NCBI RefSeq assembly: GCF_035961655.1
Contig: NZ_CP108393.1
Span: 930,001 to 994,000, forward strand
Source of the DNA: Streptomyces sp. NBC_01317
Lineage (GTDB): Bacteria; Actinomycetota; Actinomycetes; Streptomycetales; Streptomycetaceae
Direction of reading: 5' to 3'
Length of the DNA: 64,000 nt
In this document: positions 776-12,033 of the stretch, piece after piece
Layout: each line of letters opens with the position of its first letter
Numbering within the stretch: the first letter of the stretch is position 1
The notes under the pieces: generated by a model
Databases searched by the model: none
Told to the model about the DNA's origin: nothing
The model's input: only the letters and a program-made list of their open reading frames with translations
Translations under genes and position numbers: made by a program

Positions 776-1411
776 ATGAGAGCCCGGTTCACGATTGCGG
801 AGATCCAGTAGCAGGCGCTGGCCATCGTCGATCGCGACGGCCTGGCCGGGCTGTCGATGCGCTCGCTCGCGGGGGCACTCCGGACGGGACCGATGACGCT
901 CTACAACTACGTCAAGGACCGCGAGGCACTGGAGGAACTCGTGGTCGACGCCTTCGCCGCCCAGGTGGACCTGCGGGAACCCACCGACGACTGGGCCGCC
1001 GACACGCGGGCCGCCGCGACCGCCCTGTGGCACGCGGTCCGGGCGCACCCGGCCGCCGTACCGCTCGTCCTCACACGCCGCACGTCCGGCCCGGCGGCTC
1101 TGGCCCCGGCGGAGGTCCTGGCGTCCGCCCTCACCCGCTCGGGCCTGGGCGGCGCGGATCTGCTCGCCGCCTTCCGCGCCGTCATGGCCTTCGTGATGGG
1201 CCTCGCCCAGGCCGAACTCGCGGGCCCCCTGGCCCCGGAGGGCGCCGCGACCGCCGAGGCACGGCGCGTCGGCGCCCTCGCCGAGGGCACCCTCCCGGCC
1301 CTCTCCCGACTCGCCGCCGTCAGCGCCGGCCACGCGGACGAGGAGTTCGACCGAGGCCTCGCACTCATCCTCGGGGGCATCCGGCAGGCCGCGGCGAGCG
1401 AGCGAGCCTGA
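776..1411 (+). pseudogene. TetR/AcrR regulator interrupted by an in-frame amber codon at codon 12
   Basis: An ATG at 776 with a good ribosome site (AAGGAGAGG) opens a TetR frame, but codon 12 is TAG (809-811). The frame then continues with no further stop to 1411: the helix-turn-helix (LSMRSLAGALRTGPMTLYNY) and a full C-terminal ligand domain with TetR_C-like sequence are all there, about 211 codons in total. The next in-frame ATG (857) would remove the first HTH helix, so it is unlikely to give a working regulator. Possible readings are a recent nonsense mutation, a sequencing error (CAG to TAG) or low-level readthrough. The rest of the frame is undecayed, so the lesion is young. Its own twin operators sit directly upstream. 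Confidence 0.75.
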
Positions 1412-1438
1412 CCGGCGCGGGCGCAGGACTGTCCGAGG

Positions 1439-2028
1439 TCACACCTCGGGGACAACCGCCGTACGCACTGATGGAAGCCCTCGACCCCGGCCCCCGTCAG
1501 CGGCGCGCCGTGCGCCAACCCGACAGCCGTCACGTTGTGCGGGATACGGCTCAGGCTGCCGGCCCGGGTGGAGGGGTCGGCGGCCACCGAAGCGCCGGGA
1601 TCCCGTCGAGGAAGGGCCCCCACGCGCCGGAGCGTCCCCCTTGGGGAACACGACTGGGGAACACGACCCGCCTCCAGCCGGCCGGCGTCGGCCTCATGGA
1701 TCAGGATCCGGGCGCCGGTGCGGCGGCGCAGTTCCGCCGCACCCTTGACGTGGTCGGGGTGGGCGTGGCTCAGCACGATGTGCTTGATGTCGCCGGGCTC
1801 GCGGCCCAGTTCGCCCACAGCGGCGAGCAGAACGCCGGGGGCCTTGGCCCACCCGACGTCGACCAGAGTGAAGCCGTCGTCACCGTCGAGGCTCTCCCGG
1901 TTCCGTACGAACCGGAACCTCAGGTCGTCCGTGCCCACGTCACCCAGGAGCGACTTGCGCTCGGTGTCGGAAGGGGGGCGATCCCGGCCGATCCGGCGCG
2001 GTACGCGCCTCACATCCGCTCGGCCCAC
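1439..2028 (-). pseudogene. Remnant of a metallo-beta-lactamase-fold hydrolase
   Basis: On the minus strand, the part from about 1640 to 1900 encodes the N-terminal half of an MBL-fold hydrolase, with FTLVDVGWAKAP, then the zinc motif HIVLSHAHPDHVKG (HxHxDH), then a GARILIHEADAG segment. Past about 1640 the homology leaves this frame and no frame gives a convincing C-terminal half with the second and third metal motifs. The N terminus also runs into the end of the MarR gene with no clear start. I read this as a decayed gene. It sits between two other broken genes (TetR at 776 and MarR at 2010), which points to relaxed selection on this stretch. Confidence 0.6.
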
Positions 2029-4432: not shown

Positions 4433-5092
4433 CTAGTCGCAGATCTCGACGACGCCGACGTAGTCGAGTTTCTTTCTCAGGACATAACCGGTCGCGCTTC
4501 CCGAGATGACCTCGTCGACGGTCCCGTAGTAACGGTCATCGACGGGCGGCGGATAGCTCGCGGACTCCTGCCGGAAGAACAGGGTCCCCGACGCGACATC
4601 GCCGATGCGCTCCCCCTCGGCGTCCCAGATCTGGCCCTTGTTCGTCACCCGGTACTGCTGGCGCGACCGGCAGGTCCGCGTCGGTGACGGCTTCGGCGTC
4701 GGGTCTGCGGACGGGGTGCGCGGGGCAGTTGGAGCCGGGAGTCGGACCGGCGGCAGCGGTGTGGGCGGACGGACCGACGGCGCCGGTGAGATGCTCGGCA
4801 AGAGGGTCGGTAAAGGGCTCGGTGCGGCACTCGTGGTGGCCGACGGGTCAGACGACGGTCCCGGGAGCGCGGACGGAACGGGCTGGACGGGCCGGACGGG
4901 CCGAGCCGTCTCCACCGAAGAGTTGTTGCCACTGAAGACAACGGCCGCCAACGCCGCCAGTACGACGCCCGTCACCTTCCGCGAGAGGCTGTTGTGCTGG
5001 ACGGCATGGTCCCCGAAGACGACACCCTTGGCGTCGTTGAGGTGAACCGTGTACCGGCTGCCGCGGCCTTCGCCGGAACGCATCTTCCTCAC
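4433..5092 (-). CDS. Membrane protein with N-terminal RHIM/BASS-like amyloid motif and C-terminal SH3-like domain
   Basis: A 219-residue protein in three parts. Residues 13-36 carry the motif KGVVFGDHAVQHN, nearly the same as the C-terminal motif of the neighbouring gene (KGVVVGDNARQDN). Residues 38-54 are one hydrophobic transmembrane segment. A Pro/Ser/Thr-rich linker (about 60-135) leads to an ~80-residue C-terminal domain resembling bacterial SH3 folds (GQIWDAEGERIGDV, later GYVLRKKLDYVGVVEIC). The topology predicts a cytoplasmic motif and an exported SH3-like domain. The V-V-x-G core resembles the RHIM core and the bacterial amyloid signalling sequences (BASS) that join sensors to effectors. 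Start is GTG 5092 or ATG 5083. It follows the other motif gene by 3 bp, suggesting one operon. Function is unknown. Confidence 0.6.
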   Translation of the reverse strand: MRKMRSGEGRGSRYTVHLNDAKGVVFGDHAVQHNSLSRKVTGVVLAALAAVVFSGNNSSVETARPVRPVQPVPSALPGPSSDPSATTSAAPSPLPTLLPSISPAPSVRPPTPLPPVRLPAPTAPRTPSADPTPKPSPTRTCRSRQQYRVTNKGQIWDAEGERIGDVASGTLFFRQESASYPPPVDDRYYGTVDEVISGSATGYVLRKKLDYVGVVEICD

Positions 5093-5095
5093 CGG

Positions 5096-5389
5096 TCAGT
5101 GGAAGTGGTTGTCCTGGCGGGCGTTGTCGCCCACCACTACGCCCTTGACCTCATGCGCGACAAGGACGTACTTGCCGGCCCGCTCGTCGCGGCCGGGCTC
5201 GTCCACGGGCCCGCCCGCCTCGCCCGGGTCCGTGGCGGACGACTGCTCGTCGGCAGCAGCGCCCCGCTCACGGCGCACCAAGGAGATCGCTCCGTCCCAC
5301 GCGTCCCGCGCGACCCCCTGGACCGTCTGCGTCAACCCGGCCGTCGCCCCCGCGACCAAGGCCTGGGCCACCAGTTCCATCTCGGGCAT
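5096..5389 (-). CDS. Small protein with N-terminal helical domain and C-terminal RHIM/BASS-like amyloid motif
   Basis: A 97-residue protein starting at ATG 5389 after a strong ribosome site (AGGGGGA). Residues 1-42 are an Ala/Gly/Val-rich helical region (LVAQALVAGATAGLTQTVQG...) of the kind found in short actinobacterial proteins with membrane- or effector-type domains. Residues 45-72 are an acidic linker. Residues 73-97 end the protein with the motif KGVVVGDNARQDN. The next gene downstream starts with the matching motif. Shared motifs at the C terminus of one protein and the N terminus of its neighbour are the hallmark of amyloid signalling pairs described for bacterial NLR systems. No NLR or nuclease is seen here, so the pair would be an unusual membrane/SH3 version. 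Confidence 0.6.
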   Translation of the reverse strand: MPEMELVAQALVAGATAGLTQTVQGVARDAWDGAISLVRRERGAAADEQSSATDPGEAGGPVDEPGRDERAGKYVLVAHEVKGVVVGDNARQDNHFH

Positions 5390-5571
5390 CGTTCCCCCTA
5401 CACCGGCTCACCGGCGCCTACTGGCTCTACGGCAGCCCAGTATGGCCACGATTCACCACCGCCCCGACACACGATCACGCCCGAAACGGCACTGACCTGT
5501 GCGGACTCCAGGCCACATTCGCCCGGACGAGTGGCACCCCGGGCGATTCGGCCCGGCTGCCTGATCCCCCG

Positions 5572-10236: not shown

Positions 10237-10381
10237 CGCTGCGTCGCGTCTGGGGGTAACCCGACCATCCCTGTCGCGTTGGTCAGCCTGTGACTGCAGC
10301 AGACGCCTACGACTTGCACCTGCCCCGCTCTCGACGACCCACCACGAAGCGAGGTTGAGGAGCGGCTGCACGACCTCCTCG

Positions 10382-10537
10382 GTCCTCCCCGCCGGTGCAG
10401 GGGTGTTCCGTGTGGCCATGCCCGGCCCGATTCCCAAGAGGGGTCTTCCCCGCCGACGCCGGGGGTACTGCGCAAAGCCCTCGGACAACGCCCCAGACCG
10501 ACCGAACGCTACTCCCTGCCGACGCGGGGGAGGGCCA
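10382..10537 (+). CRISPR. Decayed type I-E-like CRISPR remnant (about three repeats), no cas genes
   Basis: Repeat 1 at 10382-10410 and repeat 2 at 10443-10471 start 61 bp apart, the 29+32 period of actinobacterial type I-E arrays. They match at 18 of the first 22 positions around the hairpin core CTCCCCGCCGGTGCAGGGG versus TTCCCCGCCGACGCCGGGG. A third, poorer copy (CTCCCTGCCGACGCGGGGG) lies at 10509-10537, 66 bp on. The core has the CCCCGC...GCGGGG dyad of Streptomyces repeats, and repeat 1 ends in TGTTCCG as those do. The 3' ends of repeats 2 and 3 are degenerate. No cas gene is in the window, so it is called a relic. The spacers (10411-10442 and about 10472-10508) were not matched to anything. 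Confidence 0.5.
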
Positions 10538-10706
10538 CTCGCCGGACTCGCGGAGAGCGAGGGAAAAGGTCCTCGACAACGAGACAGCACCAGCGCGCGG
10601 CACCCACTCCCGTACGGCTTTGAACCACCGCATGGCACTGCAAAGTTCGCACGATCCTGCTCGATCGGATGCTATCTCCACGTACCCTGACCAGCACTCC
10701 AGAGCA

Positions 10707-10735
10707 CCTGACGCTCCATCATAAAGAGCGTCAGG
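10707..10735. terminator. Perfect 10-bp inverted repeat hairpin
   Basis: CCTGACGCTC (10707-10716) and GAGCGTCAGG (10726-10735) are perfect complements with a 9-base A/T-rich loop. It could end transcription on either strand; it lies just beyond the 3' end of the RNA-methyltransferase scrap on the minus strand, the expected place for that gene's old terminator. Confidence 0.6.
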
Positions 10736-10789
10736 ATATCGCCCTCAACGCACATAGGGAACATCACGCGCATCCGCCAAAGCCACAGG

Positions 10790-10864
10790 TCAGCGGCCCT
10801 TTGCGACAGGTTCAAGGATCGCCACGCACTCCACGTGATGGGTCATCGGGAATGGGTCAAGGGC
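10790..10864 (-). pseudogene. C-terminal scrap of a TrmA/RumA-type RNA (uracil-5-)-methyltransferase
   Basis: A minus-strand frame reads ALDPFPMTHHVECVAILEP and then stops at 10790-10792. This is the C-terminal signature of actinobacterial TRAM-domain RNA m5U methyltransferases (a PMTHHVECVALL block close to the stop). Nothing upstream on the minus strand continues the protein; sequence past about 10864 is unrelated. It is a roughly 25-codon remnant of a deleted gene. The assignment rests on one motif recalled from the family. Confidence 0.45.
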
Positions 10865-11297
10865 TTTCCGATAACGGTAGCGGTGTGAAGAAAGATCACG
10901 CTTGCCCTCCTGCCTCCACGCTGGACAGAGCATCGTGCCCTCCGTGGTGTTTCCGGCTCTGTCTTCGCTGAGACGGCCGTGCGGTATCTGCGTACGACGG
11001 CGGCTTTTAGAACTCCTAACGAAATGATCTTCGAGGTGGTTGGATCACTCCGGGAGTGATGATCCGGGGGCATCGTACGGTCCCGGAGCCGGCGGCTCCT
11101 GACCCCCACACCCGCCTCCTCACCGGCCCCCGCGACGGACGCATCTCCACCCCAGTCCTCCGTGACCCCACCCACCGGAAAGACGACGTCACCTCACCCG
11201 GCCACGAACATCTACGCCACCTCAACCCCATCCGCACCCCCCTTTCCCTCGCCCCGGACCCCGCCGCCAGACCAACTGGTCCCCAAGAACGACGGAA

Positions 11298-11327
11298 AGG
11301 CGGTACCGGATTTCTCCGATACCGCCT
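11298..11327 (-). terminator. Terminator of tRNA-Pro
   Basis: AGGCGGTA (11298-11305) and TACCGCCT (11320-11327) form a hairpin with a supporting inner CCGG/CCG pairing. It starts 18 bp past the 3' end of the minus-strand tRNA, so it fits as its terminator. Confidence 0.6.
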
Positions 11328-11344
11328 GCGACCTGCGAAAACGC

Positions 11345-11421
<77 letters not shown>

Positions 11422-11544
11422 ATGGATCCCGGGTCACTTGGGGAGAACCCCGCGTGACCACGTAGGAGAACATTACCGCACTCCGTGGGGCGTCGAGACG
11501 TGGGTTGTCCGGGTGGCGGGGCGGGAGCGGCGGACAATGGGGGG

Positions 11545-12033
11545 ATGACGGAGAACCCGCGGGACCGTGACGGTGAGGGGCGGGCGCGTAACGCGCGGCC
11601 GCGGGACGGGTTGGGGCGGCCGCTGCCCTACGGGGCGGCGGGTGTGGAGCGCCAGCCGGAGGGCGTGGTGCGCTCGCCCGCGGAGACCGTACGGGAGGCG
11701 CAGCTGCTGCTCGACGCCGGGAAGCCGTTCCACGCCCACGAGGTGTTCGAGGACGCGTGGAAGTCCGGTCCTGACGAGGAGCGGGCGCTGTGGCGGGGGA
11801 TGGCGCAGCTGGCAGTGGGGCTCACCCACGCCGCCCGGGGCAATACGGCCGGCGGGGCGCGCCTGTTGCTGCGTGGTGCCGGGGGTATCGCCCCGTACCG
11901 CGACCCGCACGGCCTTGACGTGAGTGGACTTGTCGCGTGGGCACGGGAGTTGGCCGCCCGGGTCGACCCGGTGGAGGGTCGTGCGGTCGCGGTCGTCGAC
12001 GCCGGCCGCGAAGCTCCCCGGCTGTTGGGGTGA
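11545..12033 (+). CDS. DUF309 domain-containing protein
   Basis: 162 residues from ATG 11545, placed after GGGGG. Residues 45-115 match DUF309: [24 protein letters not shown], then [21 protein letters not shown], with the conserved HEVFE and W residues. The family is a small all-helical protein of unknown activity. The N terminus is a basic, disordered extension. It converges on lutC, with only 9 bp between the two stops. Confidence 0.88.

Follow-up and report, generated by a model that had tools for sequence, protein, structure and literature searches.

Can a membrane protein take the place of the NLR in a bacterial amyloid-signaling gene pair? RHIM is an amyloid-forming motif known from animal cell-death proteins. 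BASS3 is the RHIM-like bacterial motif of Bell/NLR pairs, as passages of four papers describe it (PMC7889193, PMC8086366, PMC9815663, PMC7885112), and a passage of one of them, a 2021 review (PMC7889193), poses the question of whether signaling amyloids occur in NLR-independent pathways of fungi and bacteria. A pair of adjacent genes in Streptomyces sp. NBC_01317 raises this question anew. It lies in a stretch of 64,000 nucleotides (contig NZ_CP108393.1, positions 930,001 to 994,000), the whole of which is called the window here. The sequence-only reading of the window had placed open reading frames (ORFs) at 4433-5092 and 5096-5389, and both are present there on the minus strand, with the gene for P1 upstream of the gene for P2 and a gap of 3 nt between them. 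The features of the pair are listed below in window positions; type A is the kind of pair to which it belongs.

5096..5389, minus strand: P1, 97 aa, with a helical N-terminal part, a linker, and a C-terminal RHIM/BASS3-like motif
5264..5389, minus strand: P1 residues 1-42, the helical part common to the P1-type family (alignment of 12 relatives)
5099..5179, minus strand: P1 residues 71-97, RHIM/BASS3-like motif, core KGVVVGDNARQDN at residues 82-94 (profile without type A)
4433..5092, minus strand: P2, 219 aa, GTG start, consisting of a motif, one hydrophobic span, a linker rich in Pro/Ser/Thr, and a C-terminal domain
4988..5056, minus strand: P2 residues 13-35, RHIM/BASS3-like motif, core KGVVFGDHAVQHN at residues 22-34 (profile without type A)
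4931..4987, minus strand: P2 residues 36-54, predicted membrane span (Kyte-Doolittle)
4673..4930, minus strand: P2 residues 55-140, Pro/Ser/Thr-rich linker (sequence)
4436..4672, minus strand: P2 residues 141-219, domain at the C-terminus, probably an outer one, bracketed by Cys141 and Cys218 (sequence)
5517..5533, minus strand: CACTCGTCCGGGCGAAT, upstream element that all three type A pairs have in common (found at 3 of 48 loci)
5438..5444, minus strand: CATACTG, second upstream element (4 of 48 loci, L056 in addition to all three type A pairs)

P1 ends in KGVVVGDNARQDNHFH (a longer excerpt of its terminal sequence is AGKYVLVAHEVKGVVVGDNARQDNHFH), and P2 has RYTVHLNDAKGVVFGDHAVQHNS near its N-terminus, followed by the hydrophobic stretch, the linker, and the C-terminal domain. 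A motif at the C-terminus of P1 and another near the N-terminus of P2, in adjacent genes, had been claimed from the letters, and both the alignment and the profile bear this out; the gene pair and its matching motifs are real. When the last 30 residues of P1 are aligned with the first 45 of P2, the local BLOSUM62 score is 56, and the highest score among 20000 shuffles is 52. The same end-to-start alignment of 28 other same-strand neighbor pairs, which are mechanically chosen ORFs of the window, scores 31 at most. A recent DNA copy of the motif is not seen because, over the 24 codons, only 12, 17, and 14 of 24 bases are identical at codon positions 1, 2, and 3.

The matching of partners extends to other pairs. 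In a set of 10 pairs from which near-copies were left out, true partners score 60.1 compared to 50.1 for reshuffled ones, and the true-partner score is reached in 17 of 20000 reshufflings; when only the seven core positions are scored, the matching is weak (559 and 1093 of 20000, the same 10 pairs). Val replaces the core Gln in both members of the window pair and of the SID3212 pair, Ala replaces it in both members of the G044 pair, and two NLR pairs (L023, L025) are mismatched at this position. Of course, common descent of the operons can yield matched motifs without any contact between them.

To which family do the motifs belong? Membership in BASS3 was judged with a profile of relatives rather than with a BASS3 profile. 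An independent profile of 30 motifs, type A excluded, ranks P2 first (E 3.8e-6) and P1 second, though weakly (E 0.058), out of 565 ORFs in the window. Applied at E<=0.05 to the 7182 ORFs of the collected loci, it lists P2 of the window and P2 of SID3212, and the type A P1 proteins and the G044 P2 are absent; because these are missed, type A is regarded as a diverged branch. Another profile, A7, consists of 24 hand-chosen motifs, three of them from type A, and its invariant residues are two Gly, one Gln, and one Asn. Against 177635 PDB sequences at E<=10 it finds three matches only, all of them RIPK3 RHIM chains, with 19 positions aligned and E values (0.064-0.11) that are non-significant alone. 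The Pfam RHIM family (PF12721) touches 6 of 12 P1-type proteins at E<=1, the best at 0.0062, below the cut-off, and has no match in P1 or P2 of the window. Across 246 Streptomyces genomes, A7 has 18 hits with E<=1e-4, spread over 12 genomes, and all 18 are P1-type genes (12) or their adjacent partners (6); most of the matched families are already inside A7, and the point of the count is that nothing else turns up. In the genome of the window it finds the pair alone, the next match having an E of 1.58.

The core V-V-x-G that the sequence-only reading had called RHIM-like does hold for this group, but the usual core of the relatives is V-Q-x-G, and V-V-x-G is its Gln-less variant. A core of the form (V/I)-Q-x-G with Gln is found in neither P1 nor P2, which have Val instead. 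In most P1-type motifs two Gln stand seven residues apart; the window keeps the second, and the first is Val in both motifs.

P1 belongs to a family that is spread thinly through the genus. With P1 as the sole query, hits at E<=0.001 occur in 10 of 246 Streptomyces genomes, that of the window among them, and an alignment of 12 relatives at E<=1e-5 matches 38 of 392 Streptomyces genomes and, in a search of the class, 9 of 394 genomes, five of them outside the genus. At the start of the relatives is a helical stretch, for example MTEVELVAAALAAGASAGLTDTA, and the C-terminal end of those that bear the motif resembles GVQVGDHNTQTNTF. P1 retains the first helical part and the motif without the middle part present in most relatives and is, judging by the alignment of 12, a shortened family member. 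An AF2 model of a 127-aa relative of P1, made from 27 sequences, has five helices and a mean pLDDT of 71, with low confidence in the motif region, and fold searches with this model give no placement. For residues 1-42 of P1, comparison with SID3212 gives a dN of 0.104 and a dS of 0.166. By sequence, then, the P1 family is one of small helical Streptomyces proteins with a C-terminal RHIM/BASS3-like motif and often with an NLR neighbor that opens with the same motif. Some P1-type genes are entirely without the motif (L057-L061, L063, L064, L088, L092), and several of these adjoin a gene on the opposite strand of about 1000-1100 aa whose opening, judged by eye, is like that of a SARP-type regulator.

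What stands beside P1-type genes elsewhere? A census of 392 Streptomyces genomes gave 42 rows, which amount to 41 P1-type genes since one row (G061:61429) is a partner. The partner classes, counted by reading the neighborhoods, are as follows.

NLR-type partner: 11 of 41 (G019, G034, G097, G116, G147, G230, G236, G645, G687, G707, G750)
Membrane partner with a single span and the motif at its N-terminus: 9 of 41, in 8 genomes (G000, G044, G061, G087, G438, G639, G691, and G745 twice)
Membrane protein with two spans and internal repeats resembling RHIM: 2 of 41 (both in G642, where the P1-type genes have degenerate motifs)
Other or none: 3 of 41 (G032, a 468-aa motif protein upstream; G212, a small motif-less protein; G725, a broken gene)
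P1-type gene itself without the motif: 16 of 41

An NTPase-type domain is found in six of the 11 NLR-type partners (L023, L026, L054, L056, L087, L096), the assignment of L023 being PADLOC STAND_TPR with a Pfam hit below the cut-off. The domain scan of L081 was without a hit, and L022, L025, L080 (cut by a contig end), and L082 were classed without a domain scan; L022, L025, and L080 open with the same residues as L023. By Kyte-Doolittle, all 10 of the single-span partners, SID3212 counted, show a span, and none of nine NLR-type partners (L022, L023, L025, L026, L054, L056, L080-L082) does; another NLR-type partner, L096, has several. The motif is C-terminal in the P1-type proteins and N-terminal in both NLR and membrane partners. 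The membrane cases are not all independent, as the G438 partner is identical to that on one contig of G745, a genome with 8% contamination. They fall into three types.

Type A: window, SID3212 (L018), and G044 (L009/L021), with the C-terminal domain in common
Type B: G061, P0003, 295 aa
Type C: G087, G438, G639, G691, and G745, 215-232 aa

By BLASTP, these three types have little in common beyond the motif, which is the best match between A and C (E 0.017) and between B and C (E 3e-5); the best match between A and B is the Pro-rich linker (E 0.51). A Pfam scan gives no family above the cut-off for any of them. Because 9 of 41 P1-type genes have a single-span partner, with three types of outer domain, the membrane arrangement is a recurrent one. 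The proposal of a membrane-linked variant therefore stands in that a membrane protein does occupy the place of the NLR, but the variant is not unique to this locus, since it recurs with other outer domains. The genes are also found together elsewhere with their motifs conserved, as both motif skeletons are kept in the SID3212 and G044 pairs.

Several other neighbors of P1-type genes deserve mention. The two membrane proteins of G642 (L094:4369-6003 and L095:3396-5171, both plus strand) have hydrophobic stretches at the N-terminus and a long tail with several internal repeats resembling RHIM; L095 scores 22.9 against the Pfam RHIM cut-off of 20 bits, no single stretch passing alone, and L094 is marginally under the cut-off. 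The motif-bearing neighbor (10290-11696, minus strand, 468 aa) of the P1-type gene L062:9453-9839 (minus strand) lies upstream, not downstream, and is unmatched in Pfam at E<=0.01. In the partners of type C (L065, L071, L083-L086) a second conserved stretch, TVTAGDHSTVTQKNTHLRF, lies between motif and span (about residues 35-50 of P0004), and it resembles a degenerate motif repeat.

P2 has one hydrophobic stretch (residues 36-54), which is borderline, with a Kyte-Doolittle peak of 1.65 against a cut of 1.6; its G044 homologue peaks at 2.85 at the same position. The C-terminal domain is 90% identical to that of SID3212 and 68% to that of G044 (80 columns), and the linker, at 53% identity to SID3212, is the lowest among the long parts. 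The domain had been described as SH3-like, which is not confirmed: a Pfam scan gives nothing above the cut-off, a PDB profile search is without a match (best E 0.62), and an AF2 model from 3 sequences has a mean pLDDT of 50. It is also rare, being found in 2 of 246 genomes, its own counted, and additionally in SID3212. The Pfam scan of all 219 aa finds no NTPase domain in P2. After the span there are two Cys in type A, four in type B, and two in type C, so that all 10 single-span partners, SID3212 counted, have 2 or 4; before the span there are none, except for three in G044. An even number of Cys after the span suits an oxidizing outside and is no proof of it, and the charge around the span is uninformative for the topology of P2 and of the partners.

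Compared to SID3212, both motifs are under strong purifying selection, with few changes (dN 0.016 and dS 0.267 for P1; dN 0.039 and dS 0.824 for P2; dN/dS of about 0.06 and 0.05); the linkers, unlike the motifs, vary freely. In the comparison with G044, the motifs (44% and 35% identity) are among the less conserved parts, below the outer domain at 68%, which fits either co-divergence or weaker constraint. Upstream elements were sought within 400 nt at 48 loci. The one at 5517-5533, CACTCGTnCGGGCGAAT, lies 5' of P1 in all three type A pairs, and CACTCGTnCGGGCGAAT is possibly a regulator site. Elsewhere in the window, the ORF at 907-2028 (minus strand) and a 296-aa intact-looking gene near the SID3212 pair (L018:7335-8225, plus strand) have the stretch SDTE.KSLLGDVG.DDLRFRFVRN.ESLD in common and then diverge. 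The window ORF is probably a decayed or rearranged copy, and the common stretch may be taken as a sign of partial synteny between the loci.

We put the probability at roughly 0.6 that P1 and P2 form a two-gene RHIM/BASS3-type signaling module in which the single-span P2 stands where related modules have an NLR. The starting points, all legible in the sequences, are the gene pair, the two motifs, the family, the predicted span, and the recurrence with other outer domains. From them we infer a topology in which the P2 motif would lie inside the cell and the Cys-framed domain outside. Sensing of a ligand, or damage to the envelope, would cause P2 to cluster, and the clustered motifs would nucleate a cross-beta (RHIM-type) amyloid that templates the C-terminal motif of P1 and thereby recruits and activates P1. 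The helical part of the polymerized P1 would then act as the effector, probably at the membrane, bringing about cell death or growth arrest, as the literature proposes for Bell proteins in NLR modules. A signal would thus pass from the outside inward.

The same contact could also run in reverse, with P2 as a membrane anchor or effector at which an assembly started by P1 or by a third protein docks. P1 has only 97 aa and is without the middle helical part of its relatives, so that it may be an adaptor, and the outer domain of P2 has no recognized binding function (no Pfam or PDB match). However, P2 has the place and the motif position of the NLR, the receptor of related modules, and three different outer domains on one layout are what is expected of sensors, which leaves the reverse direction unlikely. 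The chances are poorer still that the motifs pair by an ordinary beta-strand or other stoichiometric contact without polymerizing into amyloid. Both motifs do lack the core Gln of RHIM, but the closest solved relatives are RIPK3 RHIM chains, BASS3 motifs described in passages of two papers give fibrils (PMC7885112) and foci (PMC9815663), and Drosophila RHIMs without a conserved Gln still form amyloid, according to a passage of PMC9496462.

One could also consider the motif pair a relic of an earlier NLR or membrane module whose signaling has been lost, given that few genomes have type A (2 of 246, its own counted), P1 is shortened, and the motifs have diverged in G044. The purifying selection on both motifs, the upstream elements in common, and the intact frames of both genes in three genomes make this quite improbable. 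A chance likeness of two short Gly/Val-rich stretches is scarcely credible: one shuffle did come as close as 52, but 0 of 20000 reach 56, and the independent profile detects both motifs. Chance similarity is refuted by the motif skeletons kept in two other pairs.

A more general proposal can be made, tentatively and at somewhat less than even odds. Streptomyces surface receptors would signal across the membrane by RHIM-type amyloid, each being single-span, with an outer domain of one of at least three exchangeable kinds, a cytosolic RHIM, and its own small effector. On this proposal, and by analogy, the type A RHIM would be a Gln-less “cryptic” one, as in Drosophila PGRP-LC. If true, this would mean bacterial amyloid signaling without NLRs that is driven from outside the cell, and RHIM signaling from membrane receptors in bacteria, as in insects. 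The pairs are small, easily expressed candidates for NLR-independent signaling amyloids, and the matched motif pairs, whose core residue is Gln, Val, or Ala, would lend themselves to probing how amyloid specificity is encoded.

Among known systems, the signalosomes of Bell and NLR proteins, as passages on them describe, are similar in that a small helical protein with a C-terminal motif is followed by a gene whose product has the motif at its N-terminus. The relatives of P1 are likewise paired with NLRs, and their Gln spacing of seven is also that of the BASS3 tested from S. atratus, in which the key Gln residues are at positions 113 and 120 (in a passage of PMC9815663). P1 is likened to Bell by this arrangement and by its NLR-paired relatives, not by a Bell profile. 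The differences are that P2 is a single-span membrane protein and no NLR, that P1 is shorter, and that the first Gln is Val. With mammalian RHIM (RIPK3; PF12721), the V-x-x-G core and the flanking pattern are in common, but the RIPK3 matches do not reach significance by themselves and PF12721 leaves P1 and P2 unmatched. EAD systems such as EAD10, in passages of PMC7159879 and PMC8195603, likewise have operons in which a receptor-side gene and an effector-side gene carry one and the same domain. EAD10 (PF19954) differs in that P1 and P2 are without a match to it; it matches 2 of 12 P1-type proteins weakly, reaching into the motif, with a best E of 0.0029, below the cut-off. As is proposed for P2, whose motif likewise lacks a Gln, Drosophila PGRP receptors have an intracellular RHIM-like motif, in their case without a conserved Gln, and relay the signal to a cytosolic partner that bears a motif, PGRP-LC doing so from the membrane (a passage of PMC9496462). 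The two are alike in working principle; no membership and no sequence relation of the outer domains is claimed, and P1 is without a death domain match. The arrangement had been thought to be without a prior description, and indeed none was found in the literature searched, which takes in part of the long result lists and leaves the founding BASS paper (Dyrka et al. 2020) outside. Judged by sequence, what is known would thus be the motif family and its C-/N-terminal arrangement in adjacent genes, and what is new the replacement of the NLR by a membrane partner, a pair that may hint at the use of amyloids by bacteria to relay a signal inward from the cell surface.
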